The notes beneath the pieces were generated by a model. That model was not told where the DNA came from. It saw nothing but the letters and a program-made list of their open reading frames with translations, and did not search any database. Positions 17,394 through 63,792 of a stretch of DNA of 64,000 nt are shown piece by piece. Position numbers and translations under genes: made by a program. Numbering within the stretch: the first letter of the stretch is position 1; every line of letters begins with the position of its first letter. The stretch is from Hyphomicrobium sp. (GTDB lineage Bacteria; Pseudomonadota; Alphaproteobacteria; Rhizobiales; Hyphomicrobiaceae), in the NCBI GenBank assembly GCA_022841965.1, contig JALHQM010000001.1:5868-69867 (forward strand), written 5' to 3'.

Positions 17394-18803
17394 CTAGCGC
17401 TCGCGCTCCTGATCCCGCTCATTATCCTGCTCTGGCGCCTTCTCCGGAGCCCGCCGCGCCCCGCTCTGATCTTTGAGCCGCTCCAGCAACGACCGGCCCT
17501 CGCTTTTCTGCACAAACGCCCTCTTCCCTTCCAGGGAGGCCTGCAAGGCCTTGGTCTGCGCTATCTGTTGGCTGGACAGCGTGCGCCATTCGTGCCGCAG
17601 AGCATTGCGCTCGGCTTTTTGCACTTCGATCAGCGTCATCCGCTCAACCATGTAGCGCTCCGCCATTTTGCGCTGCGCGAGCTGGTGATGGGTGTGAAGC
17701 GGGATGAGGGTTTCGCGGATTGCGCGGCGTTGCTGTGCAGCCAAAGCGTGGCGCTCACGCAGGATCTGTCGCTCATGCTGCGCTGTGCGGTCCGAGGCCG
17801 AGGTGAGCGTGCGCCAGAGTTGCGAGACGATATTGGGTTTTGGGCCTTCCAGTACGGAGTGGTTGGTGCTGATGGACTTGAACGCATTGCGCAGACGCCC
17901 GAACTGGGTTTTCTCCCGCTCCTGAAACACGGCGCGCTCAATGTCTTCGCGCGCACGCAGATCGCGCCAAAGCGGGCGGTAGCGCTCGATAAGGGTCTGG
18001 CGGGCTTGTGTGAGGGCGCTGGCCATCTGCTGCTCCAAACGCAGGCGGAGCGCGCGGTCTGTCGCATGCAGCTGCTGCCATGACTCTGCGTGAGCGCGTT
18101 TGAGGGCGCGCGTGCGGGCTCCCAGTGTCCGGATTTGCTGGCGCTGGGCGTCTTTGAGCTGGGTGAGGCGATCGGGATTGTCATTGGAGGCCGCGCGCAA
18201 GACTTTTGCGGCCTCGACAATCTGCCGGGGCACAGGGCGAAGGCCGCGCGTAAAGTCACCGCGCTTGCGGGCATCGTTGTTATGGACGCGCTCCTCACAA
18301 TAAATTTTCCCGCGCGTGCGCTCATAGGTTTGTGCCCAGTGAGAGAGTTTCAGCTTCTCATTGGAGGAGGGCAGAATGCGGCCCGTCGCCGGGCAGTGCC
18401 GGTTGAGCAGAATATGAATATGGGGGTGCGGGCTATCGTTATGCCCGATGATCAGTGCTTGCCGGTCCGATCCGCCCAAGGCGCTTATCGCACTCTCGGC
18501 TGCAGCGCTCATCTCCTCGCGCGTGAGATTTTGCTTTTCCTCAGGGTGCCACGAGAGCACGAGATGAAGAACGCTGTGCTGGGCTTTGCGCCCGGTGGTC
18601 TTAATGCCGGCCTCGGCTTTGAGTTGCTCGGCGTTGAGGGCCGTCGCCGCCATCACCTTCCAGGCAGTATCAGGATTGCGAGTGGCGAGATTAAGGGTCT
18701 GGGTCCAGGTCACGCGCTCGGCCGTGCCATGGTCATGGGTATCGTGCAGGAGATAGGCGGCCGCTCCTTTGAAGGAGCGGCCCTTCATCACTTTAGGGAT
18801 CAT
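17394..18803 (-). CDS. MobP-type relaxase
   Basis: 469 residues. Relaxases nick oriT and lead the transferred strand. The N-terminal domain (about 1-150) has Tyr17 in KGAAAYLLHD as candidate nucleophile and the metal-binding histidines in HNDSPHPHIHILLN (121-134), the three-histidine motif of the MobA/VirD2-like Relaxase family. The rest (about 200-469) is a long, Arg/Gln-rich helical, coiled-coil tail with no primase or helicase motif. Its start overlaps the end of mobC by 11 nt. It acts with the coupling protein encoded at 24085. Confidence 0.9.
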   Translation of the reverse strand: MIPKVMKGRSFKGAAAYLLHDTHDHGTAERVTWTQTLNLATRNPDTAWKVMAATALNAEQLKAEAGIKTTGRKAQHSVLHLVLSWHPEEKQNLTREEMSAAAESAISALGGSDRQALIIGHNDSPHPHIHILLNRHCPATGRILPSSNEKLKLSHWAQTYERTRGKIYCEERVHNNDARKRGDFTRGLRPVPRQIVEAAKVLRAASNDNPDRLTQLKDAQRQQIRTLGARTRALKRAHAESWQQLHATDRALRLRLEQQMASALTQARQTLIERYRPLWRDLRAREDIERAVFQEREKTQFGRLRNAFKSISTNHSVLEGPKPNIVSQLWRTLTSASDRTAQHERQILRERHALAAQQRRAIRETLIPLHTHHQLAQRKMAERYMVERMTLIEVQKAERNALRHEWRTLSSQQIAQTKALQASLEGKRAFVQKSEGRSLLERLKDQSGARRAPEKAPEQDNERDQERER

Positions 18804-19164
18804 AGTCTTGCGCGAGTTTGTCCATCGTTGCGTTCAGTTTCAAAAAGGCCTCCTCAATGTAAGGCGGGCATTCACGGCCTCGGTTCAGGGCCCGGGCGAT
18901 CTGATTAATATTGATGCCGATGCGGTTGAGCTCAGCCATGGCCTCTCGCGGCACAGAGGCGCGCGGCGGTTTGATTACAATCTTCAGCGCGGCCCGGCGA
19001 ATATATTCCGATACAGTAAGCCCCGCGTAATGAGCCATCTGGGCGATATAATCCAATTCAGCGCGGGTATAGCGCTGCTTATTCTGCATGGAGCGCTGCT
19101 CCAGGGCCTGCTTGCGCGGTCGTCCCGGTGCACGCGGGATCGGGGTGGTGTTGAATGCGGTCAT
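18793..19164 (-). CDS. mobC: MobC-like relaxosome accessory protein
   Basis: 123 residues. MobC proteins bind oriT and help the relaxase melt the nick region. The family core is visible: YTRAELDYIAQMAHYAGLTV with SEYIRRAAL (a ribbon-helix-helix-like start) and ELNRIGININQIARALNRG. AGGAGGAC precedes the ATG at 19164. It is first in the mobC-relaxase operon, with oriT expected directly upstream. Confidence 0.85.
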   Translation of the reverse strand: MTAFNTTPIPRAPGRPRKQALEQRSMQNKQRYTRAELDYIAQMAHYAGLTVSEYIRRAALKIVIKPPRASVPREAMAELNRIGININQIARALNRGRECPPYIEEAFLKLNATMDKLAQDYDP

Positions 19165-19874
19165 AGAAAAAAGTCCTCCTATACTATGCACGCGTCTCGA
19201 TAGGAGACTGCGGGACCGAAACTCGTGCTGCGCAGGATGAGGCCGCCGCGCCGCCTCTAAGGCGTGCGCGGGCGTGCGCTCTCCTGCGCCTGGCTTTCGG
19301 GTGAAAGCAGAGTCTCGTGCTCTGGATGATTTACGGAAATAGAACGCAGCGCCGCGAAGACAAGAGCGCGAGTGCGCCTCTCTTGGGGTCCAGGGGCTCG
19401 TCCCCTGGTCTGGGAGGGTTGAGGGGGGCGCGATGCGCCTCCCCACCAGATGCGGCCTTATCGGTGCAGGAAACCGCGTGCCATCCCCTCTGGGATGGCC
19501 GCGGATTTCTGCCCGATAGGCCGGTTTTTGGGTACCAAAAACACATCTGGCTCCTCGCTTACGCTCGGAGTTTTCAGCCTGAAAGTGGTTTTGAGAATAA
19601 AAGGCGGCTTTAAAGGCTGCGCTCTAACTCACGCGCGTGAAAAAGTTCGCTTGGCGCGAGTGTAAAAACGGAATCGAAGGCCTGGGCAAGGGGTCATTTG
19701 TGCAAATGACCGAATATCAGCGCATTTGTTTTATGTCGAAATATTCCTGAGCGTTTCAAATTCGCCGCGCATACCGGCCATAAATGCCGTTATGCGATTT
19801 AAAGGTTTGTTAATCCCAACACTTGTACTCTGAATACCATATACAACCAAGAGTGTTATGAAAGGAGTGGGGGT
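19165..19874. other. Non-coding region with candidate oriT
   Basis: 710 nt without a supported gene, between divergent mobC and a putative RHH gene. On the minus strand ATCCTGC (19232-19238) matches the IncP/MobP nic core ATCCTG|C. Other structures are an IR at 19390-19408 (ccagggg/cccctgg), a hairpin at 19480-19499 (gccatccc/gggatggc) and a perfect 9-bp dyad at 19692-19711 (ggtcatttg/caaatgacc), the last a likely operator for the gene at 19875. The position upstream of mobC and the relaxase is where oriT normally lies. Confidence 0.5.
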
Positions 19875-21878: not shown

Positions 21879-23291
21879 ATGATGGAACTGATGGCGATGG
21901 GTCTGGCGGCGCTCGGTTTGGTGGGCGCCATGGTGCCCTGGCCTTTGGCACGCAAGAGCGTGCCCAAGGAGCTGGTGCTCCTCGATCACAGCTTCAATAC
22001 GACAGCCGATAAGGACAAGGAAGCGGCGCTAGACAAGAAGCGCTCGTTCCTGCGCGTTACCTCGGAGTTCGGCTACGGTATGGCCGTCTTTGCCACGACG
22101 CTGCTCTCACTCAAGATGCTCTTTCACGGCCTCAATCTTGATGCTGTGCGTGAGAACGGACCGAGCCTCAGCGCCTCTCTGACGGCGCTCGGCTACGCCA
22201 TGGGTCTGACTTTCTGCATCTTCGTGACCTTCGCCATCATCATGAAGACGATGCCGACCATGAAGACGCGGGCGGCTTCTAGCCTTGCCTCACTCCTCAC
22301 GCTCGTCTTCTGCGTTTTCACCGTCTCCACGAGCGCGTGGTTCTCGTTCTGCGGCATGATCGGCCTGCAGGCTGTCTCCATGAACACCAAGACCTATGTG
22401 GCGCGCGTGGCGGATGCGGCCAAGGCGGCGACCGCCGAAATCAAGGTTGCGCGCGGCATCCCGGATGCGCTCGAAGCCAAGGCACAAGGCTTCCGCGCGC
22501 AATCGGGCAATGAAGTCTCCAAGGGCGGTGCCACCGGCTCGGCGGGATCGGGTCTCGTCTCGCAGACTCTGGAGGCGGCGGCTGTGGTGCTTTCGACCGG
22601 CGCCTCATCCATGCGCGAGGCCTTGGCCAAGGCGGATATGGATGCGGGCCTTCTGCGCGGCAAGCTACAGGCTATGCGTGAGATGGCGGAAGATCGCAGC
22701 CGTCCGGTGCTGGAGCGTGAGCAGGCCGTCACCAAGCTGGGCGCCGAAGTGCTCTCGATCCTCTCGGTCATCGCCGATGCGGGTCTGAAGGAGCGCGTCG
22801 ATGCCACGTTGGTGGCGGTACGCTCCAGCGTGGCTGAGCTCGATGGTGGCAGCTCGGCCTTCGGCCTGCGTCAGCGCGACGCCATCGCCCGTATTCGCGC
22901 GGACATGGAGGACGTAGCCAGCCGGCTGGAGGCGTTCTCGCAGCGTCTGGTCACGGCGGAAGGCGCGAATATCCCCTCTATGGCGGGCTCGTTGCCGGAG
23001 ATTGCCTGGACCTACAAGCATCACTTCATTCCGATGCTCCTTATCGCGCTTGGCATCGAGCTCTTCGCGCCCTTCGCGCTGGCCTGGATGGCGGTCTACG
23101 GCATGGAAGGCCGCGCGCGCCGCAAGGCGGCCCGCTACGAGCGGGCGCTCAAGGTCGAAGAGGCCGCCAACACGCTCCTCCCGACGCAGGCCCTGCTGGA
23201 GATGCCCGCCGTGGCAGCGATCAAGGCCGAGCCTGCGGCCTCGGCGGAGAAATCTGCGCGCAAGCCCAAGGGCCCGCCGCCGCGCGCATGA
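21879..23291 (+). CDS. Multi-spanning membrane protein, transfer region
   Basis: 470 residues with AAGGAGAAGG before the ATG. Probable membrane segments are about 4-22, 66-86, 97-121, 133-160 and 383-405; between the fourth and fifth lies a long, Ala-rich helical soluble domain (about 165-375) with coiled-coil character. The C-terminal tail is Lys/Ala/Pro-rich. It stands in line with the next membrane protein and the coupling protein. No known T4SS subunit recognised; a role in the transfer apparatus is inferred from position only. Confidence 0.7.
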   Translation: MMELMAMGLAALGLVGAMVPWPLARKSVPKELVLLDHSFNTTADKDKEAALDKKRSFLRVTSEFGYGMAVFATTLLSLKMLFHGLNLDAVRENGPSLSASLTALGYAMGLTFCIFVTFAIIMKTMPTMKTRAASSLASLLTLVFCVFTVSTSAWFSFCGMIGLQAVSMNTKTYVARVADAAKAATAEIKVARGIPDALEAKAQGFRAQSGNEVSKGGATGSAGSGLVSQTLEAAAVVLSTGASSMREALAKADMDAGLLRGKLQAMREMAEDRSRPVLEREQAVTKLGAEVLSILSVIADAGLKERVDATLVAVRSSVAELDGGSSAFGLRQRDAIARIRADMEDVASRLEAFSQRLVTAEGANIPSMAGSLPEIAWTYKHHFIPMLLIALGIELFAPFALAWMAVYGMEGRARRKAARYERALKVEEAANTLLPTQALLEMPAVAAIKAEPAASAEKSARKPKGPPPRA

Positions 23292-23372
23292 CGAGAGATA
23301 TCCGGGAGCGCCATGGCGCTCCCGGCTGCCAAAGACACGACATCGCAGACATGCTTTTGCCAGGAGATATCG

Positions 23373-24020
23373 ATGACAGGCTTGAAGATGATCGGACAGG
23401 TATCGGCCTTTGCGGTGAGCGCCGCGATGGGGACGGTTGTGGTGGGTTCGATTGGCGTGATCGTGGCGTACTCGGTTTTGACCGCGATGATCCCGGCGGA
23501 TGACAAACTTTGGGGCGATGCGCGCTGCTATCTTGGTGTTCCGCTTCAGACGGATAGCGCGTGCATTCAGGATCAGCTCAACCGGGCCTTGAAGGAGCAG
23601 GACGCTGCGCATGAGCAGCGCGAGCAGGAGATGGTCCAGAAGATCAGCGCCCTTGAAACAGAGAAAGGCCATCTGGAGACGGCGCGGCGCGGGTTCGAGG
23701 AGAAGCTCGACAAGCTGGGAAGCATGGAGGCCAAGGTGAGCACCTTCACGCTCTTCACGCGCAAGACCTGGCGTCAGTATGAGGTGACCAGCGGCGTCAA
23801 CTACACCTCCTTCGTGAAGGACCAGGCCTGGTCGAAGGCGTGGTGCTACGTCTCGATCACGACGCCGCGCGGTTTGCCTTTGCATATCCAGCTGGCCACG
23901 CAGGAGCGCGGCAAGCTTCCCGATGCGTCCGATCCTGAGGCGGCCGTCCGTGAGGAGGCTGGCTTCTCGGTCAGCGACATCGCCGAAGCGCGCGGTTATT
24001 GCCAGTGGCCCTCCCCGTAG
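23373..24020 (+). CDS. Membrane-anchored coiled-coil protein
   Basis: 215 residues from the ATG at 23373 (AGGAGA 6 nt upstream; an earlier in-frame ATG at 23313 lacks one). One N-terminal membrane anchor (about 7-40) is followed by a coiled coil (about 72-125, rich in Glu/Gln/Lys) and a Cys-containing C-terminal domain (AWCYVSITTPRGLPLHIQLA). Probably periplasmic. It lies between the large membrane protein and the coupling protein. No family recognised. Confidence 0.65.
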   Translation: MTGLKMIGQVSAFAVSAAMGTVVVGSIGVIVAYSVLTAMIPADDKLWGDARCYLGVPLQTDSACIQDQLNRALKEQDAAHEQREQEMVQKISALETEKGHLETARRGFEEKLDKLGSMEAKVSTFTLFTRKTWRQYEVTSGVNYTSFVKDQAWSKAWCYVSITTPRGLPLHIQLATQERGKLPDASDPEAAVREEAGFSVSDIAEARGYCQWPSP

Positions 24021-24084: not shown

Positions 24085-25746
24085 ATGGTCGAGCAGCACA
24101 AACAGTCTCCGCCCGTACAGATCGGGGGATGGTTCTGGCAGGCCGTGATGCTGGGCTCGCTGTTCTATTCAGCCAGCCAGGGCTGGATCCCGGGCCCTGT
24201 GCCCGCGCCCGCTGCGCAATATGTGATCTGGGCGTCTATCGCGCTGGGCGCGGTTTTGGTCTGGTACCTGAGTGGCGTTGCCCTGCGGGCCTGGGCCGCG
24301 CTGGACAGGATTATTCAATCTTACAAGCCCTCCATCGTGCATGGTTCGGCCCGTTTTGCCGATCGCCACGATCTTATGAAAGCCGGGCTCCATAAGGAGC
24401 AGGAGGGGCTTTGGGTCGGGGTCTATGACGATCTCATTCTCCGCTACAAAAATGAAACCCACACGTTGGTGATTGCATCGGCCGGATCAGGCAAGACGGT
24501 TGATGATGTCATCATGCAGCTCGGCACAGTCAATATGCCGATGATCATCACCGACATGAAAGGCGAGCTCTACTGGGTCACGTCTCGCTGGCGTGAGACG
24601 CGCTTTGGGCACCGTATCGTGCTGATCAACCCGCCGGTTGGCGCCCCTCATGCCGGCGATGCGTACAATGTGTGCGATTTGGTGCGCGAAGCCCTGCAGC
24701 ATAATCCGCAGGATGCGCTGTTGGATGCTGCGGGCATCGCCTATCAGCTGCATCCGGAGCCGGCCAGATCCGATGCCAATGCGTTCTTCCGCAATGGTGC
24801 GCGCGAGATTGTCAGCTTCACGATTCTAGCCACGGCGATCCTGTCGCCCGAAGAATGCTGTCTGCCCCTCGTGCAGAAGATCATCACAGACACGCCCGTG
24901 CTGATCGAGCTCTGCCGGACCATGAAAAATCATCCCGCTCTGGGCGGCGATGTGGCCGCCCTGGCGCAGTCGCTTCTGAGCGTTGCGGAGGATACGCCCA
25001 AAATGTTTGGCGATTTTCGCACGGGCGCGATGCAAGCCTTGAGCGGGTTTGCGCCGTCGGGCCGGCTCGCCGCGATGACGACTCGTTCGACCTTCCGCTT
25101 CCGGGACCTCAAGACACAGGGCAATGTGAGCATCTACGTCAATTTTGACATGACGCGGATGCAGCAATTCAAAAAGCTCGCTTCGCTCTTCAACTGGGCG
25201 GCGATGATCGAGCTTCAGCGCTGCGGCGTGCCGCGCCGCGTCCTCGTGATGATGGATGAAGCGTCCAACTTTCCGGTATTGGAATTACCGAACTACCTCA
25301 CGGCGCTGCGCGGCTACGGCATTTCCGTGTTCATGGTGTTCCAGGAGATTGAAGAGATCAGGCGCGTTTATGGTGATGCCGCAGTCGCCACGCTGTTGGG
25401 CCAGTCGGATATGATCAAAGCCTATGGGATCAAATCGCAGGAATCGCTTCGCAAGTTCTCAGAGATGTGCGGGAAGGCGACCTGGGAAACAGGCGGTTTC
25501 AATTTTGGCCAAACCCCTGGAGATGTCAGCAATCAAAGCCGCTCATTCGTCTCGCGCGACTTGATGACCCCGGGCGAGGTCCGGCTGATGAAGGACCATG
25601 AGCAATTGGTCTTTATCAAAGGTTTGAATCCGCTGCTCTGCGGCCGGGTCGGCTATCACGAGGTGGAGCCCCTGCGCTCGGGTCTGGAGGGCAATCCCGT
25701 GCATGGCGGCGCGCCCTATCGGGGCACAGTGATGGTGGAGCTCTGA
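24085..25746 (+). CDS. VirD4/TraG-type coupling protein
   Basis: 553 residues. T4CPs are inner-membrane ATPases that hand the relaxase-DNA complex to a type IV secretion channel. Two N-terminal membrane helices (about 17-33 and 44-66) precede the ATPase; Walker A is ASAGSGKT (about 131-138) and Walker B is VLVMMDEASNF (Asp391, Glu392). TraG signatures such as VHGSARFAD, NPQDALLD and ALRGYGISVFMVFQ are present. AAGGAGAAGG lies before the ATG. Its presence without other mating-pair genes implies use of a partner element's channel, or that those genes lie outside the window. Confidence 0.93.
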   Translation: MVEQHKQSPPVQIGGWFWQAVMLGSLFYSASQGWIPGPVPAPAAQYVIWASIALGAVLVWYLSGVALRAWAALDRIIQSYKPSIVHGSARFADRHDLMKAGLHKEQEGLWVGVYDDLILRYKNETHTLVIASAGSGKTVDDVIMQLGTVNMPMIITDMKGELYWVTSRWRETRFGHRIVLINPPVGAPHAGDAYNVCDLVREALQHNPQDALLDAAGIAYQLHPEPARSDANAFFRNGAREIVSFTILATAILSPEECCLPLVQKIITDTPVLIELCRTMKNHPALGGDVAALAQSLLSVAEDTPKMFGDFRTGAMQALSGFAPSGRLAAMTTRSTFRFRDLKTQGNVSIYVNFDMTRMQQFKKLASLFNWAAMIELQRCGVPRRVLVMMDEASNFPVLELPNYLTALRGYGISVFMVFQEIEEIRRVYGDAAVATLLGQSDMIKAYGIKSQESLRKFSEMCGKATWETGGFNFGQTPGDVSNQSRSFVSRDLMTPGEVRLMKDHEQLVFIKGLNPLLCGRVGYHEVEPLRSGLEGNPVHGGAPYRGTVMVEL

Positions 25747-25748: not shown

Positions 25749-26141
25749 ATGGCCCGCGTCGTCAAACCCATCAAAGTTACTCATGTGCTGCGGCCGCCGC
25801 GGGTCTGGCCCCGCGTTCTCTGGACGCTGCTCCTCAAATTCTGGGGCCGTATTCCGACGCCCACACCGCCGCCCATCGCGGTCGTGCTCAGCTATATCCC
25901 CGTGCGGCTGGTCCTCGTGCTCGGCTTTGCGGCGATGATCTGGTTCTGGGGGACTCCGCAGCCGCTAGTGGAACAAAGACCGCAAATGGGCCAGCTGATG
26001 CAATGCCGCTATATGGGCTGGGATCTGGAGCCGCGCCGGGAGGCGCGGCTGGGCGCCTGCGCCTGGGTGCGTTTTGAGCCCGTGCCGGATTGGGTGTGGG
26101 AGGCGCTGGGCCTCACAGACTGGCGGCGAGATTACTCGTAG
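25749..26141 (+). CDS. Small membrane protein
   Basis: 130 residues starting 2 nt after the coupling protein stop, so co-translated with it. One or two membrane segments (about 20-34 and 49-67, the latter PVRLVLVLGFAAMIWFWG), then a Trp/Arg-rich soluble tail. No family recognised; probably a coupling-protein partner (inference). Confidence 0.6.
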   Translation: MARVVKPIKVTHVLRPPRVWPRVLWTLLLKFWGRIPTPTPPPIAVVLSYIPVRLVLVLGFAAMIWFWGTPQPLVEQRPQMGQLMQCRYMGWDLEPRREARLGACAWVRFEPVPDWVWEALGLTDWRRDYS

Positions 26142-27506: not shown

Positions 27507-28589
27507 ATGACTAAACATATTACTGTGACGATGGGTGATGGGCAGAGCCGCGAATTAGCGGTGAGCGGAATCAAATATCTCAAAATTATTCCCGGCGCCG
27601 GCAAGGGCGATCATCCGGGCGGCTTTCAGACAAAGGTGATCCTGGCTGGTGAACGCGACGCGCTCTATGCCAGGGAATCGATCAAGGAGCTCCGCTCGGT
27701 CGATTGCCCGCTCGTCTATGTCGGTGGCGGTCTCTATGCCCCGCGGCCTAATATTGCGAGGTTAGAGCCACTCGGGGAAGAGGAACGCACCCGCTTCGCC
27801 GAACAGAAGAACGCCAAGGTGGATCACTTCCGCACCCGGGTTGTGCTCACGGGCCAGCTCGGATCGTTCTGGGGCACGAAGACCATTCCGGAGCTCAATG
27901 AACGCGGTACCCGCTTTATCGGGCTCGGGGATGGAAGCTTCGTCCATATCCAGAATATGCGCAAAATCGTCGAGCTCAGCGATGAGGAGCGGCGCAAGAT
28001 TGCGGAGCGATACGAGTGCGATGCCAGCGGCTTCCGCACGCAGGTCTCCTTGCAGGGCTCTGAAAAAGCCAAGCTCGCGCGGGTGAGCATGGCGGAGTTT
28101 CGGGCGGCTGGCCTCGCGCTGGTCGAGAGCGGACCTGGTGAGGCTGTGGTGGCCAGTAACATCAAGTTTGTGGGGCCCTTTGGGACGGAAGACCAGGAGC
28201 GACTGGCAGCCGCGCGAGAGGGGATCGATGCCGAGAAATTCGTCTCGAAAATCACGCTCGCCTGGGGCCTCGCACCGGTCTTGTCCGTGCGGTCGCTGGA
28301 TGCGCTTCGGGCCAGCTTGCGCAGCGTCAATATCGGCTATGACCGCCATGTGCCGGCCGATCATGTGGTGGCGGAGAAGGTTGAGGCTTTCACCAAGGAC
28401 GATAAATCGTCTCTCGCTGAGGCGGGCTATGCCGTCGAGCGGGCGTGGAAGTCGAGTGTCGGCTTGATCAACGGCTTGGTGCTCTCACCGGCGACGCCGG
28501 AGCAGATTCGTCAGCGCTGTGAAAAGGCCAAGCAGGGTGCGGGGCTTCTCCCGTCAGGGGAAACGGCGCCGGATGTGGCGATGGGCTAG
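27507..28589 (+). CDS. Protein with four 68-residue tandem repeats
   Basis: 360 residues, AAGGAG before the ATG. Four repeats start at Phe40, Phe108, Phe176 and Phe245, a period of 68, 68 and 69. Each has F-x-T-x-V-x-L, then a Ser/Thr-Ile-x-Glu-Leu helix, a gly-rich turn (YVGGGLYAP, GLGDGSFVH, ESGPGEAVV), an Asn-Ile/Met strand and a Glu-rich helix. Single related modules occur in the proteins at 28658 and 30923. No signal peptide. The family is not recognised; the module could be a small strand-helix binding unit. Confidence 0.65.
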   Translation: MTKHITVTMGDGQSRELAVSGIKYLKIIPGAGKGDHPGGFQTKVILAGERDALYARESIKELRSVDCPLVYVGGGLYAPRPNIARLEPLGEEERTRFAEQKNAKVDHFRTRVVLTGQLGSFWGTKTIPELNERGTRFIGLGDGSFVHIQNMRKIVELSDEERRKIAERYECDASGFRTQVSLQGSEKAKLARVSMAEFRAAGLALVESGPGEAVVASNIKFVGPFGTEDQERLAAAREGIDAEKFVSKITLAWGLAPVLSVRSLDALRASLRSVNIGYDRHVPADHVVAEKVEAFTKDDKSSLAEAGYAVERAWKSSVGLINGLVLSPATPEQIRQRCEKAKQGAGLLPSGETAPDVAMG

Positions 28590-28657
28590 GGGCGTGTGTG
28601 GGCGGGACGCGCCAGCGCGGCCCGCCTTCCACGCGCAAGCGAATAAGGAGAGCTATC

Positions 28658-29173
28658 ATGAATCAAGACTATCTGAACTTTGACCGCGTTTTCCATGTCC
28701 ATCGGTCGGACATTACGTACATCCGCAAGGCGCGCCATTTGGAAGTGGTGCCGGTGGAGGGCGATATCGGCATGTTTGAGCCGGTCAATCCGCACGCGGC
28801 GGTCATCATCTTCGCCGATGCGCGCAAGCGCCGCTTTATCACGGACATGACCCTTCACGATCTGGTGCGGGGATCGCTGCCCTTGGTGGATTTGGGAGGA
28901 GGGCGCTTTGTGCCCGCCGCCAATATCCGTGAAATCTGCGAAGCGCCAGAAAATGCGCGCGAGCAGGGCACAGAGATCTGGCTCCACGGGCGGCCCTATG
29001 CGGTGTGCCTGATGAGCGAAGTTCCCAAAGCGGTCATGGAACAACGGTGGGAAGCGGCGATGGCCCGCCTTCCTGATGCCCCCATCCCAGGCGGTATCAG
29101 CGTGCGGCTGCCGCGTGAGACGCAGCCTTTGCGTGTCCGTGGCGATGCGGCGCGCCACAAGCTAGCCGCGTGA
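28658..29173 (+). CDS. Hypothetical protein with one repeat-type module
   Basis: 171 residues; AAGGAG 7 nt before the ATG at 28658. Residues about 48-95 (AAVIIFADARKRRFI, TLHDLV, VDLGGGRFVPAANIREI) match the 68-residue repeat of the protein encoded just upstream (69 nt gap). The rest is unrecognised. The two genes are probably one operon. Confidence 0.6.
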   Translation: MNQDYLNFDRVFHVHRSDITYIRKARHLEVVPVEGDIGMFEPVNPHAAVIIFADARKRRFITDMTLHDLVRGSLPLVDLGGGRFVPAANIREICEAPENAREQGTEIWLHGRPYAVCLMSEVPKAVMEQRWEAAMARLPDAPIPGGISVRLPRETQPLRVRGDAARHKLAA

Positions 29174-29183
29174 GTGTCCACCG

Positions 29184-29318
29184 ATGACTCTGACCGAGGC
29201 GTTCCGGGCTGCACTCGCACGGGGCCAGCAGCGTGATGAGAAAGGCCGCCCCAAAAGGCGACGCCGCACGATCAGACGCAGCCGTTGGCGGACTCGCAGC
29301 GCGAGACCCAAATTCTAA
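29184..29318 (+). CDS. Possible small basic peptide (44 aa)
   Basis: Starts MTLTEAFRAALARGQQRDEK and continues into a strongly basic tail (GRPKRRRRTIRRSRWRTRS). It begins 10 nt after the previous stop, so it could be the third gene of that operon. A GC hairpin (about 29323-29353) follows. The basic composition suggests nucleic-acid binding if it is expressed. Confidence 0.4.
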   Translation: MTLTEAFRAALARGQQRDEKGRPKRRRRTIRRSRWRTRSARPKF

Positions 29319-29418
29319 ATCTGAGGTCCCTACTCGCCACGAGCAGGGGCCTCACTTTCCCTTTCGCCATAGCAAAGACAATAGCGTCATAGTTTCGGTA
29401 AAGGGCGGTTGAATACAA

Positions 29419-29652
29419 TCACGGACCAGATGGGGGTGACGCGTCAGGGTTCGACTTCGAAGCTGACCGCTCGTCAAGCAGCCGGTAGGCAATCAGGGCC
29501 AGAAGGGCGCCCCAGGCGGCCTTATAGGAGGCGTCAAGTGCTGCCAGACCGTCTTGGCCACCACCGGAAAGATACACAAAGCCACCGACCCCGACAGCAG
29601 CTGTCGCACCGGCTGCAAAAAGCGCTTTGCGATTGAAAAGATCATTATACAT
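29419..29652 (-). CDS. Small membrane protein
   Basis: 77 residues starting MYNDLFNRKALFAAGATAAV. Two short hydrophobic segments (about 10-30 and 46-60) separated by a Gly-rich turn, with a polar Ser/Pro-rich tail. It lies 46 nt downstream of the minus-strand gene at 29699. No family recognised. Confidence 0.5.
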   Translation of the reverse strand: MYNDLFNRKALFAAGATAAVGVGGFVYLSGGGQDGLAALDASYKAAWGALLALIAYRLLDERSASKSNPDASPPSGP

Positions 29653-29698
29653 AGTTGCCTCCGTTTCTTATTATATAGAAAGTTATAAAGATTGCGGA

Positions 29699-30535
29699 TT
29701 ATTTTGCAAATGAAAAGCGGTGGTAATTGGCCCAGACGGAAACGATAACGCATCCAGCAATATAGCCCCAGCCAATGATCGGAACGCAACCGACTGCCAG
29801 TCGTTGTAACATCCCGCGAGCTGCGGTATCGGCAAGTTTAGAGCGGGCTGTCACCAAGAACGCTACCATGAGCTTTAGGCAATCTTCCACTGCTGGTGCA
29901 AGATCATCCCACGATTTTGTGGTGATAGCTGATAGCGTCTTCTCTAAGGCATCCTGAATAGCGGTGTCCCGGTTCATAAACTCGACGATCAGGCTCTTGT
30001 CAGAGACGACTATTCCGAGGATCTCAAAAATTATATCGCCCAGAACTACGATGTCGCTTTCTACAACGCCAGGGACAAGAGAGGGTATTGGTGCCGGAGT
30101 GACCGCTGTAGAAGGCGGTGTGACAGGCAAATTTTCTGCCTCAAGTTCCTTGATAATCGAGATTTGAACATCGACGGTCACTGGATCGAGCCTCGCACGA
30201 TGCCAGTCGGGGACAAGCGCCGGGGCCGCTTTCACAAATGTGATAGATCGCTCAACCGTAGTGAAAATCTCCGAACTGCGCGCAGCCTCCAAAGTTTTGC
30301 GGCGTGCATAGAAATCGGACGAGAGATACGTAAAAATATTGTTGTCCGGATAGGTCATTGCGGCGTCAATCGCGCGCTTCTCGACCAAGCTTACCTCATC
30401 GAGAGCAATCGTTATCAGATCACGATCTCTGTTGCGTTGGCCAAAGGCCTGCACGGATAGCAAAGGATATAGCAAACCTGCGAGGCCAAAGGTTTGGCGT
30501 CGGGTCATCATGGAACGCGGCATTGATTGTTGCAT
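29699..30535 (-). CDS. Exported hypothetical protein
   Basis: 278 residues from the ATG at 30535, which follows a G-run; a start 39 nt further up is possible. The N-terminus has arginines (MTRRQTFGLAGLLYPLLSV) followed by a hydrophobic stretch ending in QAFGQ, a possible Tat or Sec signal. The middle is helical with a Pro/Thr linker (TPPSTAVTPAPIPSLVPG), and a hydrophobic segment near the C-terminus (IIGWGYIAGCVIVSVW) suggests membrane anchoring. GC is lower than in its neighbours. No family recognised. Confidence 0.55.
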   Translation of the reverse strand: MQQSMPRSMMTRRQTFGLAGLLYPLLSVQAFGQRNRDRDLITIALDEVSLVEKRAIDAAMTYPDNNIFTYLSSDFYARRKTLEAARSSEIFTTVERSITFVKAAPALVPDWHRARLDPVTVDVQISIIKELEAENLPVTPPSTAVTPAPIPSLVPGVVESDIVVLGDIIFEILGIVVSDKSLIVEFMNRDTAIQDALEKTLSAITTKSWDDLAPAVEDCLKLMVAFLVTARSKLADTAARGMLQRLAVGCVPIIGWGYIAGCVIVSVWANYHRFSFAK

Positions 30536-30922
30536 GCTAGCCCCCCCCTTGTGTTCGAAGTCACTCTTCGTCATGAAAGCGTCACTGAAATTTACGCGAA
30601 TATGCTATCTCTGACGGTGAGCGTCGGCAACTTCGAGTGCATCGTTTACGAGCCACGTTTGTTTGACAGTGCCGTGGCCCAATTTGTTGGTTTGACAGCG
30701 TGATCCTCTCGGAGATGAGTCTGAGCGATGCTTTTCCGGCCGTGCACGCCCAGGCTGGCGGTCTAACAGGCAAGTCCGCACAAAGAAGCGTTGCGGAAGG
30801 ATCAGACCCAACCGTCGAAGGGCGTGGTTTGCGAGACCACAATTCTAAATATGCGAGATGCCGCCCCATCAGTGGGGCGGCGTTTCGCATGGAACGAACC
30901 CTTGACAGTTGTGCGGCGCCGC
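30536..30922. other. Intergenic region with long hairpin
   Basis: 387 nt without a supported gene. A long imperfect hairpin spans 30851-30890: inner 8-bp stem gccgcccc/ggggcggc (30860-30867 and 30874-30881, loop atcagt), extended outward by atgcga/tcgcat after three mismatches. Its T-run is weak (gttt). The octamer tttgacag occurs twice upstream (about 30662 and 30692). It may be the scar of an older recombination event; nothing else recognised. Confidence 0.45.
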
Positions 30923-31453
30923 TCACTCGAAAGAGGCGAGGGCGGGCTGATGCTGGCTGGCCTCTGGACCGTACAGTCTTTTGAGCTGCTTACGGGCTTC
31001 GAGCCGGGCCGTGTCGATCGCGATGAGAAGATCGATGTCCTTCATCGGGGTAAACATTGTGCGGGACGTCACATCGCGGCATTTGAGCTCAAACCGGGTG
31101 TGCGGCGTCGGTTGGCCAGGGTTATCGCAGTGGTAGTGAAACTTCTCCGCATTGCTCAGCCGCGCTATGCTGTTGAGTTCGACGTTATCCGCGAACACCC
31201 AGCGGTCGCCGAGCTGAAGCGCGCCGAAGCCTGCGAGCTCTTCGGGTGTGTTCAACGTCATAAGCGGGCCCTTGCCCTGCGCATCCTCGAAGACGACCAG
31301 ATCAACACCGGGGCTCCCCCCTGGAAAGGCTCCGGCGCGCTCGTCGGCGGTCATCAGGCGCGCGAATAAGACGTCCTGCCGGTTGATCAGCCCGAGCTTA
31401 ATGCCGGCCATAGCAATGCGAACTTCAATATAATCTTGTGGTGAAAACTTCAT
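30923..31453 (-). CDS. Hypothetical protein with one repeat-type module
   Basis: 176 residues. Residues about 50-100 (VDLVVFEDAQGKGPLM, TPEELAGFGALQLGDRWVFA, DNVELNSIARL) follow the same strand-helix-turn-strand plan as the repeats of the 27507 protein. The flanks are unrecognised; the N-terminus is MKFSPQDYIEVRIAMAGIKL. AT-rich sequence lies upstream. Confidence 0.55.
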   Translation of the reverse strand: MKFSPQDYIEVRIAMAGIKLGLINRQDVLFARLMTADERAGAFPGGSPGVDLVVFEDAQGKGPLMTLNTPEELAGFGALQLGDRWVFADNVELNSIARLSNAEKFHYHCDNPGQPTPHTRFELKCRDVTSRTMFTPMKDIDLLIAIDTARLEARKQLKRLYGPEASQHQPALASFE

Positions 31454-36610: not shown

Positions 36611-38674
36611 TCAAGCCGCCGCACTCTCACTCGCCGGGTCCATCAGGAAGGGCGGTAGCGCAGCCGGCGGCGTCTCGGGTTCAGAGGAACTCTCAGGGTG
36701 AGGCTCAGTCTCACCGCGCAGGATCGGCGGTAGCCAGCCAGTTCCCTGCACAAGCCGTGCAGCTTCCTTGGCCATATCCGGCTTCTTCAGATGATCAATG
36801 AGCTGGGCCGTGCTGGAGCCCCGCGCTTCACGGACACTCTCGATGATCTGGGCCTTGGTGATGCGCCCAAAGTAATTCTCAACCGTCGGCTCAAACCCGG
36901 CGGCGCCCATGTCGAGAGTCAGGGTCGAGGCCAGTTGGTCGGCCTGCATCAGAGAACGCTGCGCACCATAGGCGTGGGGCTCCCGCACGGCTTTGATGCT
37001 GCGGGCCGCGCAATAGGCCAAGAGCGCCGCGCGATCATCCGCCGTGGTCGTGAGAAGATGGCTCCAGAGCTTGGCAGGGTGATCCGGAAGCTGGGCTTCA
37101 AACGCATCATGCGCGGTTTGGAGGGCGGATGTCGGTTTCCAATCATCGAGCCCCGGCACCAGACGGCTGGTGTACGGCGTGATGCTCAGTTGCAGGCAGG
37201 TAGCGCCGCGTCCGGAATAGAAGACGGAGAGCACCATGGCGTGAAGCACAGCGACGAGCGCAATCTCGGGCTCCTCGGAGAGGCGCTGTTGCAGGGCCGT
37301 TGTGCGGTAGGCTGTCAGGTCATGGATCAATTTGGGAGAGACGCGGTCATCCTCGTCCGGGGCAGGGGATGAGGAGCCGTTTGAGTCTATGTTCTCCTCC
37401 CGGCTGTCACACATTCCGTTGCCGCCCTCATGCTCCGAGTCGGCGCTCTCATCTTCAGTCGCAGTGTCGTCTTCGGGCCTCAGAAGCCCGTAATCAATCG
37501 AGAGCCTGCCCTCATGACTGATGGAGAGCAGCACGCCCGCGCGGGCTTTATCGGCCTCGTCAAACAGGGGACGGCGGTCATCGATGGCCGCAATCTGCGC
37601 TTCAACAGACTCCAGCTGCCCGCGCTGCTCATCGCCATTCTCGGCATCTTCATCGAAGTCTTCGATTAGGGCGTCGTACTGCGCGCTGAGCACATCATAG
37701 GCTGTCTGCTCGTCTTCCGCCAGAGGCGGCTGTTCGGCGGGGAGCCGGCGCAATCGAGACCGGATAGCATAGGGGGATTCCAGTGTGCTCTCGGCCCATT
37801 TCCAGCCCTCAGAGAGAAGCGCGGAACAGGCAGCCGCCAGCTTTTCAGAGGCAAGGGCATTCAGCAGCGCCGGGTCATCAAAATATCCCCCATCCTCCTC
37901 ATCGAAGAGATCACGGGAGATGGTGCCGCCGGCCGCGATATAAGCCTCCTGGCCCACGAACAGCGCGCGTTTGTCATCCGCCTCCACCTTGTCCTCGGTG
38001 AGCAGGCGCTTGATGGCATAAGGCTGAACGCCGAGCTGCCCGGCCTGGATCATGCCCCAGAGCTGCTCCTGGCGAGCATGATCCTCGCTCAAACAAAAGG
38101 CCATCAAGGCCTCCAAACGCAGTGCGTCCTGGGCATAGGCCTCGAGCAGAACGGGACTGGCGGCGGCGAGCCGCAGGCGCTGCCGCACCACGGCCGGTGT
38201 CACGGCATAGGCGGCGGCAATCTCGTCTTCGGAGAGGCCGCGCTCCCGCAGCACCTGAAAAGCGCGGAACTGATCGAGCGGGTGCAAAGCTTCTCGGTCA
38301 GTATTCTCGGCGAGACTGTCATCTTCAGCGAGGCCGCTGGTCTTGATGATGCAGGGAATGGGGGCATCAGGATCGAGACGCTTCTGCGCTACAAGGAGCT
38401 GCAACGCGCGGTAGCGCCTTCCGCCCGCCTGGATCTCGTAGCGGCCGCTCTCAGCACCCGACTCGTCCAGAACAGGCCGCACGCTTAGCGATTGCAGCAA
38501 AGAGCGCCGCGCGATGCTATCGGCTAAGGCTTCGATGGAGAGCGCGGCCTTGGTCTGGCGCACATTGGCAGGGCTTAAGGCGAGCCGGCTGAGCGGAATG
38601 CTGGTCGCGGCGGCCAGATTGAGAGTGGGGGCAGGGGATTTGCGGGATGATTTGGGTTTGGAGGATTTAGCCAT
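36611..38674 (-). CDS. Plasmid-type ParB/RepB/Spo0J family protein
   Basis: 687 residues, AAGGAG before the ATG at 38674. The N-terminal ParB domain has IPLSRLALSPANVRQ (about 27-41), RYEIQAGGRRYRALQLL (the arginine box, GGRR instead of GERR) and LAENTDREALHPLDQFRAF; a KorB-like HTH follows (LSEDEIAAAYAVTPAVVRQR). The remaining about 450 residues are an acidic, helical extension. No ParA ATPase gene is near, so the role in partition is uncertain; such long ParB proteins are typical of mobile-element backbones. Confidence 0.82.
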   Translation of the reverse strand: MAKSSKPKSSRKSPAPTLNLAAATSIPLSRLALSPANVRQTKAALSIEALADSIARRSLLQSLSVRPVLDESGAESGRYEIQAGGRRYRALQLLVAQKRLDPDAPIPCIIKTSGLAEDDSLAENTDREALHPLDQFRAFQVLRERGLSEDEIAAAYAVTPAVVRQRLRLAAASPVLLEAYAQDALRLEALMAFCLSEDHARQEQLWGMIQAGQLGVQPYAIKRLLTEDKVEADDKRALFVGQEAYIAAGGTISRDLFDEEDGGYFDDPALLNALASEKLAAACSALLSEGWKWAESTLESPYAIRSRLRRLPAEQPPLAEDEQTAYDVLSAQYDALIEDFDEDAENGDEQRGQLESVEAQIAAIDDRRPLFDEADKARAGVLLSISHEGRLSIDYGLLRPEDDTATEDESADSEHEGGNGMCDSREENIDSNGSSSPAPDEDDRVSPKLIHDLTAYRTTALQQRLSEEPEIALVAVLHAMVLSVFYSGRGATCLQLSITPYTSRLVPGLDDWKPTSALQTAHDAFEAQLPDHPAKLWSHLLTTTADDRAALLAYCAARSIKAVREPHAYGAQRSLMQADQLASTLTLDMGAAGFEPTVENYFGRITKAQIIESVREARGSSTAQLIDHLKKPDMAKEAARLVQGTGWLPPILRGETEPHPESSSEPETPPAALPPFLMDPASESAAA

Positions 38675-38818
38675 GAGCTGGCTCCTTTCAAAGAGGTTTG
38701 AGTTTGCATCGGTCAGAGTGGGTGGCCCCACAACGAGGCGCGCTTTTGCAGCATTTGGCCACGATGGCTCTCACTGCCCCTCGCCAAGCGCCACAGGGCG
38801 CGAAGCCACCCTCTTGCT

Positions 38819-44734: not shown

Positions 44735-45334
44735 ATGATGAGCGATGGACCGTTCAAAAGCCCTTTGACTAAAAGATGTTGGCAGCCTGTCGCTGACCGG
44801 GCCGTAAATGACAATTTCTCCGCTGAGGAGGTGCGGGTGGTTGTCCCGGTCGCCCTTGCCGGCGAATTTGGGTCGCTGCCGACTGGGCTGAAGCGTGCAT
44901 TGGAGCGTGTCTTCCTGGCGGGCGGTGAGGACGGTTTTCTGGACCCGCGGGAGACGGGCGAGTTGGAATGCTTGCGCGAGGAAGCGGCCGGTCACAGCCA
45001 GGGAATGCTGGCTGTGGATTGCATTGAAGATGCGCTAGGCCGGGGATTGCGCGGCTCAGACGCACTGATCGACGCGACGGCAGTCCTACTGGAGCAATGC
45101 TACGCCGACAATGCACGCGCGATTGAAGAGCATGCTCAGCGGGACCGTCTGGAGGAGGCTATCACGCAGACTCTGCGGCAGCGTCTGGCGGACTGTGCAC
45201 TCTCATTATCGGATCTGGATGCTCTGGCGCGCAGTCTCTGGAAGCTTTCGGACGAACCCGTTGCACGCTCGGTCCCAAAACATCGCGAATTGGATAAGGG
45301 GGGGCCGCCGATCGGGGGCGAGAACGATGACTGA
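44735..45334 (+). CDS. Helical protein, first gene of the QueC-ImmA-PIN operon
   Basis: 199 residues from the ATG at 44735 (GGAG upstream; a second ATG follows immediately). Mostly helical and acidic (PTGLKRALERVFLAGG, SDALIDATAVLLEQCYADNA). No catalytic motif, signal or membrane segment seen, and no family recognised. Its stop overlaps the start of the QueC-like gene by 8 nt, so the two are translationally coupled. It may be a structural partner or the substrate protein of the system (inference). Confidence 0.6.
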   Translation: MMSDGPFKSPLTKRCWQPVADRAVNDNFSAEEVRVVVPVALAGEFGSLPTGLKRALERVFLAGGEDGFLDPRETGELECLREEAAGHSQGMLAVDCIEDALGRGLRGSDALIDATAVLLEQCYADNARAIEEHAQRDRLEEAITQTLRQRLADCALSLSDLDALARSLWKLSDEPVARSVPKHRELDKGGPPIGGENDD

Positions 45335-46685
45335 GGAAGCCATTTTGCCGTTAAGATTTGTGGAGGCGGTGGAGGTCAGTCTTCAGCCGCGGGAGGGTTT
45401 TGAACCCTGTGCGATCGGGGAGGACGTGGCGCTCGATCCGCGCGGTTTGGCGTCGTACTGTGCGGGAAGCTGGGAGCCGGTTCTGTACGATGCGTTATTG
45501 GTTTCGGCCATCGCAGAATATTGCGACCGTATGTGCAAGCGTCCAGCGCGCGGGTGGGGCCGCGCATTCGATGTTATCATTCCCGTCGATGATCCCCGGC
45601 GTTGGGAAGATCCATCCGTAAAATCGGCGCTTATGGATGCGCTCCGAACGCTGACCGGTGATCGCTGGATGATGACCTTCATCGCGCGGCGAACGCCGTA
45701 TCCAGAGCTTGGTCAAACCAATCTGCAGTGGCCACAGCCATCCTCGATCATCATGCCCTTTAGCGACGGTATGGATTCGCGCGCAGTCGCAACGCTGATG
45801 CAGAATGAGCCGCTGGTTCTCGTGCGGCTTGGCGTTAAACAGATTGATCGTCCGAAGATTGGAAGGCGCCGTCTCGCTTTCACCACCGTCCCCTACAAGG
45901 TTCCAGGTCGGGATTTTCCTGAGACGAGCGGGCGTTCGCGTGGCTTTAAGTTCGCGACGGTCAGCGCACTCGCGGCGTATTTGTCCCGGGCCAAGCGCAT
46001 CGTGGTCCCCGAAAGCGGCCAGGGTGCTTTGGGTCCGGTTTTGGTGCCGCATCACGCTGGAGGGGATTATCGATCGCATCCCGTGTTCCTGCGCAAGATG
46101 GAGCGTTTCGTGCGCGCTCTGCTGCACTGGGACGTCTCCTATGAATTCCCGCGGCTGTGGTTCACCAAAGGGCAGACGTTGCAGGCTGCGATTGCGGCCG
46201 CCCCTGAGACGCCCTGGCGGAAGACCCGTTCGTGCTGGCAACCGAGCACGCAGATGTCATTGGACAAAGAGCGTCGGCAATGCGGGTTTTGTGCGGCTTG
46301 CATGCTGCGCCGGCTCAGTGTGCATGCGGCTGGCGAATGCGAAGAGGTCGGGACCTATATGCTGGAAGATCTCTCAGCCGCCTCGCTCGCCGCTGGCGTG
46401 CCATCTGAGTATGGACTGAGCAAATTGGGTGCCGCCCAGCAGAATTATGCGGTTGCGGGCCCCCTGCATTTGGACCACTTGGCGGAGATCGCGCACAGGC
46501 GCGAGAAGCCCCGCAGCTATAGACGGCTGATGCGTGAGCTCGCCCGCGCGTTGGACGCTGACGAGGCTGATGTACAACATCGGACCGGAGCAATGCTTGA
46601 GCGGCATGCTGCCGAGTGGAGCGCGTTCCTTGGCTCGCTGCCGACCTCGTCGTTTATTCGGCAGCGAAGCATGGTGACGGCATGA
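45327..46685 (+). CDS. QueC-like PP-loop protein
   Basis: 452 residues. An N-terminal domain of about 135 residues (GWGRAFDVIIPVDDPRRWED, TLTGDRWMMTFIARR) precedes a QueC-like ATP-pyrophosphatase domain. The PP-loop reads FSDGMDS (145-151); ESGQGALGP follows at 229-237, and Cys303, Cys319, Cys322 and Cys325 (SCW, CGFCAAC) reproduce the zinc site of QueC. QueC makes the 7-cyano-7-deazaguanine precursor of queuosine. Here no other preQ pathway gene is near and the PP-loop has Asp for the usual second Gly, so a defence-type relative (as in Qat or type IV CBASS) is more likely. Overlaps neighbours on both sides. Confidence 0.78.
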   Translation: MTEEAILPLRFVEAVEVSLQPREGFEPCAIGEDVALDPRGLASYCAGSWEPVLYDALLVSAIAEYCDRMCKRPARGWGRAFDVIIPVDDPRRWEDPSVKSALMDALRTLTGDRWMMTFIARRTPYPELGQTNLQWPQPSSIIMPFSDGMDSRAVATLMQNEPLVLVRLGVKQIDRPKIGRRRLAFTTVPYKVPGRDFPETSGRSRGFKFATVSALAAYLSRAKRIVVPESGQGALGPVLVPHHAGGDYRSHPVFLRKMERFVRALLHWDVSYEFPRLWFTKGQTLQAAIAAAPETPWRKTRSCWQPSTQMSLDKERRQCGFCAACMLRRLSVHAAGECEEVGTYMLEDLSAASLAAGVPSEYGLSKLGAAQQNYAVAGPLHLDHLAEIAHRREKPRSYRRLMRELARALDADEADVQHRTGAMLERHAAEWSAFLGSLPTSSFIRQRSMVTA

Positions 46686-47863: not shown

Positions 47864-48446
47864 TGTAGACGGTCCTCTCATTCTAGACGCAAGCGCCGTC
47901 ATCAATTTGAACGGCTCTGGCGCGGCGCAAGTTATCTTGGAGGCCTTGGAGGGACCTGTCGTCGTTGCTGACGACGTGATTGGAGAGCTGGAACGCGGCA
48001 TTGCGAATGGGCGTCGTGATGCCGATTTGCTCCACGATTTGATAGCGGCAGGCTTTGTAGGCCGCCGGGCCCTGGGGCAAGTCGGTTTGCAGATTTTCGA
48101 GCGCTTGACCATCGGGTCATCGGCCGAAACGCTGGAGGACGGTGAGGCGGCTTCTATAGGATTGGCGCTGGAAATTGGGGGAGTGGCTGTCATCGACGAG
48201 ACGAAAGGTCGGAGACTTGCGGTACTAACGGCTCCGGCCGTCCCGCTCGTGGGGAGTATCGATCTCTTTGGTCATCCGCGTGTGCGAAAAGCGCTGGGCG
48301 ACGATATTGCCGAGGTGGTTTTCAGGGCTTTGCAAGAGGCTCGTATGCAGGTGCTCGCAACGCATCATGATTGGGTCGCGTCCCTGGTCGGTCCAGAGAG
48401 GCTGAAGCTGTGTGATAGTCTCCCGCGATCCATCCGTGGCGGCTGA
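47838..48446 (+). CDS. PIN-like ribonuclease domain protein
   Basis: 202 residues. PIN-domain signature: LILDASAVINLNG (Asp17), VVVADDVIGELERG (Glu50), LEDGEAASIGLALEIGG (Asp101/Glu103) and VAVIDETKGRRLAVLTA (Asp120), so all four acidic positions are kept. PIN proteins are Mg-dependent RNases and common toxins. The C-terminal 50 residues are helical. No VapB-type antitoxin gene is adjacent; the upstream XRE-ImmA protein may play that part. Last gene of the operon. Confidence 0.8.
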   Translation: MTPPSSWPDVDGPLILDASAVINLNGSGAAQVILEALEGPVVVADDVIGELERGIANGRRDADLLHDLIAAGFVGRRALGQVGLQIFERLTIGSSAETLEDGEAASIGLALEIGGVAVIDETKGRRLAVLTAPAVPLVGSIDLFGHPRVRKALGDDIAEVVFRALQEARMQVLATHHDWVASLVGPERLKLCDSLPRSIRGG

Positions 48447-52541: not shown

Positions 52542-52551
52542 GGATTTAAAC

Positions 52552-55674: not shown

Positions 55675-55693
55675 CCAAACCAGGAGAAAAGAC

Positions 55694-59223: not shown

Positions 59224-59307
59224 ACTGCCTCACTTCGGGTATGACATTGCTTGGGAGAGTAGCGGGTACCCAGTAAGTTGTCAGTACGGCCTCATCGGTG
59301 GGATTGG

Positions 59308-60546: not shown

Positions 60547-60586
60547 GCTCCATTACTCCTAGTAATATCAGCAATGATTGTGCCAG

Positions 60587-63773: not shown

Positions 63774-63792
63774 ATCTTGGGTCCTTTCGTCA

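Follow-up and report, generated by a model that had tools for sequence, protein, structure and literature searches.

A predicted RemA/LytTR-type unit, chained in twos and fives, in proteins of a Hyphomicrobium conjugative element

The window analyzed here is a stretch of 64,000 nucleotides from Hyphomicrobium sp. (assembly GCA_022841965.1, contig JALHQM010000001.1). It carries genes of a conjugative element, among them the gene for a protein of 360 amino acids (aa) that consists of five tandem units of about 68 residues. That these units share the fold of the biofilm-matrix gene regulator RemA and of the halves of LytTR domains is well supported by structural models. The initial annotation had proposed a new repeat module common to the 360-aa protein, a 171-aa protein encoded by the next gene, and a 176-aa protein. 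At the level of the fold the module is not new; yet it lacks a name in Pfam, NCBIfam, and PHROGs, none of which contains a family matching the three window proteins at an expectation value (E) below 0.1. Judged from the models, it is a new variant of the RemA/LytTR unit that is chained and carried by an element. With some reserve, we favor the interpretation that the proteins are covalently chained, multivalent DNA-binding and perhaps DNA-wrapping proteins, which serve conjugative elements as accessory or regulatory factors.

Repeat architecture of the 360-aa protein

The gene of the 360-aa protein possesses an AAGGAG motif 9-14 bases 5' of its ATG. When the protein is compared with itself, a lag of 68 residues scores highest among all lags from 10 to 199, and the runner-up is 136, which is twice 68. 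The mean residue-similarity at lag 68 is 0.00, compared to a maximum of -0.41 in 2000 shuffled sequences (lags 66-70). Phe residues at positions 40, 108, 176, and 245 mark a period of 68/68/69. Four copies had been proposed to start at these residues. Their positions and the period are correct; the number of units is five, and the earlier phase is off by half a unit. As the modules were made to start in the middle of a unit, the end pieces of each protein are half modules of complete units; in the 360-aa protein, these are the residues that precede Phe40 and those that follow the fourth copy. The helix x-Ile/Leu-x-Glu-Leu, the glycine turn, and the Asn-Ile/Val strand of the earlier description are all real. 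The natural order is strand-strand(NI)-strand-helix-strand-strand-helix, and the model of a two-unit relative displays the corresponding series E E E H E E H (E, strand; H, helix) twice.

In the correct phase, 97 units from 35 proteins could be aligned. When eight genomes were re-examined, a unit profile matched every five-unit protein at five adjacent places and every shorter protein at two, a recount that is partly circular because those sequences had helped to build the profile. The chained proteins are homologous proteins of five or two units, and their gene order is conserved (see below).

Predicted fold of the chained units

AlphaFold models were made of two proteins, the 360-aa protein and one two-unit relative (L042:10001-10492). 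The model of the two-unit relative was deduced from 14 sequences and reached a predicted local distance difference test (pLDDT) value of 82, with most ten-residue blocks of the core at 85-95. Foldseek ranked RemA at the top (E 7e-3, probability 1.0), followed by the LytTR domain of AgrA (E 0.056) and by ComE. VIA-align yielded Z values of 9.1 for ComE, 8.6-8.8 for AgrA, and 7.9 for the LytTR structure 3d6w. RemA scored 5.2-5.4 over 66-69 residues, and the next, unrelated row 4.0.

The model of the 360-aa protein has a pLDDT of 75.5 and shows the same series of strands and helices five times. Its ten-residue blocks lie at 45-80 in units 1-2, for which the input held essentially no aligned relatives, and mostly at 77-94 in units 3-5. 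Units 1-2 superimpose on AgrA with Z values of 9.6-9.9 and a root-mean-square deviation (rmsd) of 2.4-2.5 over 97-100 residues; for LytTR domains overall, the rmsd is 2.4-3.2 over 97-109 residues. The match of unit 5 to RemA has Z values of 4.8-4.9 and 23-25% identity over about residues 270-340. The input of this model omitted orthologues found by genome search and was therefore not of full depth. Several choices of fragments were compared, and the one used avoids a large gap across units 4-5; four residues per row were misplaced near 164-167, and most rows contained a stray residue at position 1. Matches to the PH domain and to Sso7d/Sac7d, with Z values of 4.7 or less and thus among the unrelated rows, were set aside.

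According to the guide of the aligner, models without a clear match typically peak at Z values of 7-8. The LytTR values are above this level, if not far above it. A single fold had been expected for all members, and the two proteins modeled do share one.

Two units side by side resemble a LytTR domain (PF04397; AgrA, ComE), with Z values of 7.9-9.9 over 93-109 residues, and the ten-strand LytTR fold with its two pseudo-symmetric halves recurs in both models. Unlike LytTR proteins, the chained proteins have no detected receiver domain, are not matched by PF04397, carry up to five units per chain, and show 7-14% identity. The single unit resembles RemA (PF04025, DUF370), which likewise consists of about 70-80 residues in the order strand-strand-strand-helix-strand-strand-helix. 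RemA has one unit per chain and assembles into eight-member rings, which were proposed to wrap DNA (PMC8481266). In contrast, two or five units are fused per chain here, each corresponding to an 80-aa RemA monomer. The RemA dimer resembles one LytTR domain of AgrA, and the evolutionary relation of the two is called unclear in the same source (PMC8481266). When solved structures were searched by sequence, nothing convincing was found, the best match (E 0.02) being a designed protein.

Sequence link to RemA and related small proteins

A RemA profile was built from eleven of twelve RemA-family proteins of named plasmids; the twelfth, cut from a protein of 248 aa, was left out. A profile of the last units, which combined those of the short relatives with unit 5, scored 25.2 against RemA and aligned end to end over 67 columns, compared to maxima of 15.5 among 40 shuffles and 19.2 among 100 unrelated clusters. 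Unit 5 alone reached 24.7 (shuffle maximum 16.5), and all units together 22.1 (shuffle maximum 12.3). Against the whole five-unit profile, RemA scored 21.5, with 18.3 for the best unrelated cluster. In the alignment, last units and RemA share the patterns V-N-I-G..V.A..I and L-S-.A-.-P-E-x-I/V..R. With other profile scores, considered below, the picture is mixed. The relation of the last units to RemA is suggestive, not proven, and the Pfam profiles do not make the link.

Fusion of such units has occurred elsewhere too. On the Pontibacillus plasmid NZ_CP062975.1 (L132:123-869, minus strand), the 248-aa RemA-family protein WP_207530800 consists, as judged by eye, of three tandem units. It is plasmid-encoded and, like the window proteins, joins units head to tail in one chain. 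Unlike them, it is named RemA family in its record, has three units, and stems from Bacillota and from a plasmid typed as non-mobilizable.

A comparison of the 360-aa model with BFVD revealed several phage proteins of 60-80 aa that match one unit, with target template modeling (TM) scores of up to 0.8 and none at E below 0.001; they are possible further one-unit relatives. Among them, phage proteins annotated as 'flagellar and swarming motility' (FlbD/SwrD, a group of phage and flagellar proteins with 60-75 aa) match one unit with target TM scores of 0.55-0.66. The FlbD/SwrD profile (PF06289) scored 22.7 against the last units of the single-copy relatives, compared to a maximum of 14.1 in 60 shuffles; against each of the units 1 to 5 from the long proteins, its scores were at or within the shuffle range (unit 1: 13.2 versus 13.1). 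Most scores lay within the controls, and FlbD/SwrD is not favored as the sequence parent.

In a tree of the units, unit 5 clusters with the last units of the short proteins and with those of the 171-aa family. The first units stand apart, and units 2-4 lie between. This topology would fit a two-unit ancestor to which three inner units were added by duplication; the reading stays a suggestion, because support in the tree is mixed (0.02 to 0.97).

The 171-aa and 176-aa proteins

The 171-aa gene starts with an ATG at 28658, 68 bases past the 360-aa gene; the mechanically called open reading frame (ORF) begins at a GTG at 28598. Comparison of the 171-aa family with the short relatives gave a profile-profile probability of 96% (E 3e-9), and a profile from the single-copy relatives alone detects the 171-aa protein in a genome-wide search (E 7e-4). 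These profiles confirm its homology to the short relatives; like them, it has two units.

For the 176-aa protein, close orthologues were found in two other genomes when the 103 sampled genomes of its family, Hyphomicrobiaceae, were searched. The profile of these three sequences scored 38.5 against the 360-aa family (maxima: 23.1 in 60 column shuffles, 23.3 in 80 unrelated clusters) and 26.1 against the single-copy family (control maximum 22.5). Against the 171-aa family it scored 19.1, which is below the control maximum of 25.4; furthermore, the unit-level profile did not match the 176-aa protein, and a whole-genome search with the single-copy profile missed it at E<=10. It is therefore a probable rather than a confirmed two-unit member. 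Both proteins had been described as carrying single copies of the module. The homology holds for the 171-aa protein, which has two units instead of one, and probably for the 176-aa protein, which would likewise have two; the notion of one mobile-element-encoded family in tandem and shorter forms is supported.

Distribution of the family

In the 103 family genomes, the 360-aa protein has eight further relatives of full length (46-93% identity), and 18 shorter relatives were found as well. In total, nine five-unit proteins from 7 genomes were found. A profile of 15 short relatives (A1) matched 20 of the 103 family genomes, including the source genome of the window and genome G015, the latter over 29 positions only. 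With the same profile, 8 of 297 genomes of the order matched, again with the source genome and the G015 fragment counted. A unit profile was used at the higher ranks and matched 2 of 385 genomes of the class, one of them the source genome, and 1 of 349 genomes of the phylum, which is the source genome. These samples overlap, so that the counts are not additive. A profile scan of genome contigs yielded 15 loci: eight from Hyphomicrobium sp., four from entries named Alphaproteobacteria bacterium, and one each from a Rhizobiales bacterium, a Hyphomicrobiaceae bacterium, and Filomicrobium.

Named plasmids contained no relative of the three window proteins, of one single-copy relative, or of one two-unit protein from genome G599. 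The phage collection had no relative of one single-copy relative, and viral contigs had no match to the 360-aa protein or to the single-copy profile. The proposal that the module is specific to mobile elements fits the sampled loci, as far as these had sufficient flanking DNA to be judged.

Selection, charge, and candidate DNA sites

Relative to the orthologues in genome G083, the ratio of nonsynonymous to synonymous substitutions (dN/dS) is 0.093 for the 360-aa protein and 0.096 for the 171-aa protein, which indicates strong purifying selection on both. The 176-aa protein has a dN/dS of 0.46, based on few changes. Isoelectric points (pI) are 8.6-9.5 in all nine five-unit proteins and 8.9-10.1 in all 15 single-copy relatives; the window's 171-aa and 176-aa proteins have values of 7.9 and 5.8. 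RemA rings bind DNA via arginines 50/51 on their outer side. In many units of the chained proteins, the strand that aligns with these arginines has the sequence F-[RK]-[ST]-[RK]-[VI]. Of 91 units, 46 and 48 carry a basic residue at its two corresponding positions, the register being uncertain by one.

A palindrome, TTATTATGAAA-N13-TTTCATAATAA or a close variant, lies about 20-60 bases 5' of four of the nine five-unit genes (L005, L006, L020, L026), and 0 of 60 shuffles reached it in each case. It was rejected as a shared operator, because it occurs in only these four of nine upstream regions and not in the window. A search for iterons and LytTR-like direct repeats at 25.7-31.7 kb revealed only two-copy repeats.

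Gene neighborhood

Coordinates of the genes and units are listed in Table 1. In all nine five-unit loci, the five-unit gene is preceded on its own strand, at a distance of 444-2655 bases, by the coupling-protein gene, which in turn follows the genes of two conserved proteins (clusters c14 and c13). Within 10 kb of the five-unit gene, a NikA/MobC-type gene is found in eight and a relaxase gene in seven of the nine loci. Eight loci have a 171-aa-like gene that starts at most 90 bases past the five-unit gene or, by the longest reading frame, overlaps it.

Table 1. Features of the window that relate to the chained-unit proteins.
Feature	Coordinates	Strand	Evidence
360-aa protein, five units of predicted RemA/LytTR type	27507..28589	+	translation, model, fold matches, dN/dS
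Unit 1, residues 1-67	27507..27707	+	unit alignment; with unit 2 matches AgrA LytTR, Z 9.6-9.9
Unit 2, residues 68-135	27708..27911	+	unit alignment; structural match jointly with unit 1
Unit 3, residues 136-203	27912..28115	+	unit alignment, model
Unit 4, residues 204-271, sole acidic unit (pI 4.9)	28116..28319	+	unit alignment, charge
Unit 5, residues 272-345, closest unit to RemA	28320..28541	+	RemA Z 4.8-4.9; profile score 24.7
171-aa two-unit protein, next gene	28658..29173	+	profile comparison, unit alignment, dN/dS 0.096
176-aa protein, probable divergent two-unit member, pI 5.8	30923..31453	-	profile comparison, charge, two orthologues
Relaxase, MobA/VirD2 type	17394..18803	-	PF03432 E 4.9e-21
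NikA/MobC-type mobilization protein	18793..19230	-	PF21983 E 2.5e-14
470-aa conserved protein, cluster c14, membrane segments (by reading)	21879..23291	+	9/9 five-unit loci; no Pfam family
216-aa conserved protein, cluster c13, membrane segment and coiled coil (by reading)	23370..24020	+	9/9 five-unit loci; no Pfam at E below 0.01
Coupling protein, VirD4/TraG type	24085..25746	+	PF02534 E 1.8e-50
Small protein directly 3' of coupling protein	25749..26141	+	no Pfam family

The short-protein loci, 19 distinct ones after removal of eight duplicates between collections and with three loci of under 1 kb upstream kept, have a ParA/VirC1-type ATPase gene upstream on the same strand in 12 cases, a Rep3 initiator gene in nine, and a relaxase gene in two. 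In genome G253, the two-unit gene lies 5' of NikA/MobC and relaxase genes on the same strand. In G599, which belongs to another family of the class, two of four two-unit genes are located downstream of coupling-protein genes, with small genes in between; the coupling gene reads as two neighboring ORFs in L148, and for L149 the scan comprised a single matching ORF.

Relaxosome accessory proteins such as TrwA and TraM are small DNA-binding proteins that are encoded beside the coupling protein, and they are ribbon-helix-helix or helical proteins. The chained proteins share the location beside a coupling-protein or relaxase gene (all nine five-unit loci, G599, G253) and would share the mode of action. 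They differ from TrwA and TraM in their predicted fold, and the element already encodes a NikA/MobC protein.

Other genes of the window and of related loci were noted as well. The gene of a 706-aa protein whose N-terminal domain is ParB-like (E 1.9e-6; 36611-38731, minus strand) lies within 10 kb of five of the nine five-unit genes. A 291-aa protein (29699-30574, minus strand) carries, by reading, the twin-arginine-like signal RRQTFGLAG and matches no known family above the cut-off. The region 45111-48446 is candidate defense cargo: it encodes a QatC-like protein (PADLOC E 1.7e-28), then a helix-turn-helix protein with an IrrE-type peptidase (RmrA-like, E 1.9e-24), and also a PDC-S70-like protein (E 1.9e-8). 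The region 50793-63803, with an HlyD-type membrane fusion protein, a 1040-aa ORF, a histidine kinase, and a multicopper oxidase, is probable metal-resistance cargo. Downstream of the two-unit gene in L044, L049, L052, and L053 there are long, varied ORFs (1619, 1102, 1071, and 1008 aa); the upstream side of these loci is more conserved than the downstream side, as at a cargo-exchange site.

Proposed function and alternative explanations

The 360-aa protein would be a covalent chain of five minimal units of DNA-binding type, and the 171-aa protein and its shorter relatives would be chains of two. One such unit would correspond to the 80-aa monomer of the eight-member RemA ring, and LytTR domains would resemble pairs of it. 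The chain may bind double-stranded DNA of its own element multivalently and could curve or wrap it along its outer edge, as proposed for RemA. The transfer origin, promoters of transfer genes, or both would be the site of action, where the chain, beside the coupling protein, would assist or regulate the processing of DNA in conjugation. The parts of this proposal differ in strength. It is plausible that the module is, as first suggested, a modular binding domain, with DNA as the likeliest ligand. From their fold and basic charge, the chained proteins probably bind DNA. A direct role in transfer, to which the gene order points, is put forward tentatively.

Several observations weigh against this interpretation. 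For neither model did Foldseek find a match under E 0.001, the RemA Z values are middling in both models, and in the 360-aa model they tie with an unrelated row at 4.7. The first units of the short relatives gave no signal against RemA (7.2), their last units alone scored 16.9 and thus barely above the shuffles (16.1), and RemA against the whole single-copy profile (16.8) stayed within the controls (18.3). The Pfam profiles of RemA and LytTR matched neither the three window proteins (E<=1) nor 15 relatives (E<=10), PF04397 yielding no row at either threshold. PF04025 exceeded its cut-off in none of the 103 family genomes and in none of 150 genomes of the phylum, and in 3 of 14 control genomes. 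The 360-aa protein is only mildly basic (50 K/R, 47 D/E), and its unit 4 is acidic. A DNA site for the chained proteins was looked for and none was found; the palindrome is absent from the window and from the other four upstream regions examined.

Regulation of promoters alone is rather unlikely. The chained proteins would then act purely as transcription factors that bind promoters like LytTR regulators or RemA and control transfer and maintenance operons, without being part of the relaxosome. RemA and the LytTR protein AgrA are indeed described as transcription regulators (PMC8481266), genes of ParA and of the replication protein Rep3 neighbor the two-unit genes in 12 and nine of 19 loci, respectively, and the shuffle-resistant palindrome precedes four of the nine five-unit genes. 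However, it is absent from the window, no receiver or sensor domain was found in the members scanned with Pfam, and the five-unit gene follows the coupling-protein gene on the same strand in nine of nine loci. The gene order with the coupling protein would suit a protein-binding scaffold, in which the fold was recruited for contacts with proteins, for example for docking the coupling protein or c13/c14, and DNA binding was lost. The near-neutral window members, the acidic unit 4, and the fact that the RemA-arginine-aligned strand is basic in only about half of the units are in agreement with a scaffold. We nevertheless regard it as improbable, given that five-unit and single-copy relatives have a high pI and that the fold matches that stand out, those to LytTR, are DNA-binding domains.

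Least credible is a purely structural analogy, that is, convergence of a small beta-rich unit with an unrelated function. No recognized family profile matches the proteins, and the Z values of 7.9-9.9 are not far above the 7-8 that are typical of models lacking a clear match. On the other hand, two models agree, the matches cover whole domains, about four or more Z units separate LytTR from unrelated rows, and the in-phase match of the last units to RemA surpasses 40 shuffles and 100 unrelated clusters. We consider such a coincidence very improbable. The favored interpretation, a chained DNA-binding accessory or regulator, can also be extended: conjugative elements of Alphaproteobacteria may have fused the RemA/LytTR unit into chains with a fixed number of units, two or five, and thereby into a covalent arc that, alone or with partners as a ring, would wrap DNA by the coupling protein in a nucleosome-like manner, and the family would be a living intermediate between RemA and LytTR. 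We judge this extension unlikely; if true, it would bridge the one-unit RemA and the two-unit LytTR.

Significance

Among the literature matches listed, no title or abstract opening dealt with chained RemA or LytTR units, subscription papers being mostly outside the search; the listed matches on Hyphomicrobium conjugative elements were all unrelated. The pairs of units in this family are LytTR-like, the last unit is detectably similar to RemA, and two or five units occur per chain; a route by duplication thereby becomes testable. As PMC8481266 leaves the relation between RemA and LytTR unclear, the chained family offers a way to study it. Furthermore, it points to a component of conjugative elements that has had no name so far and probably binds DNA.

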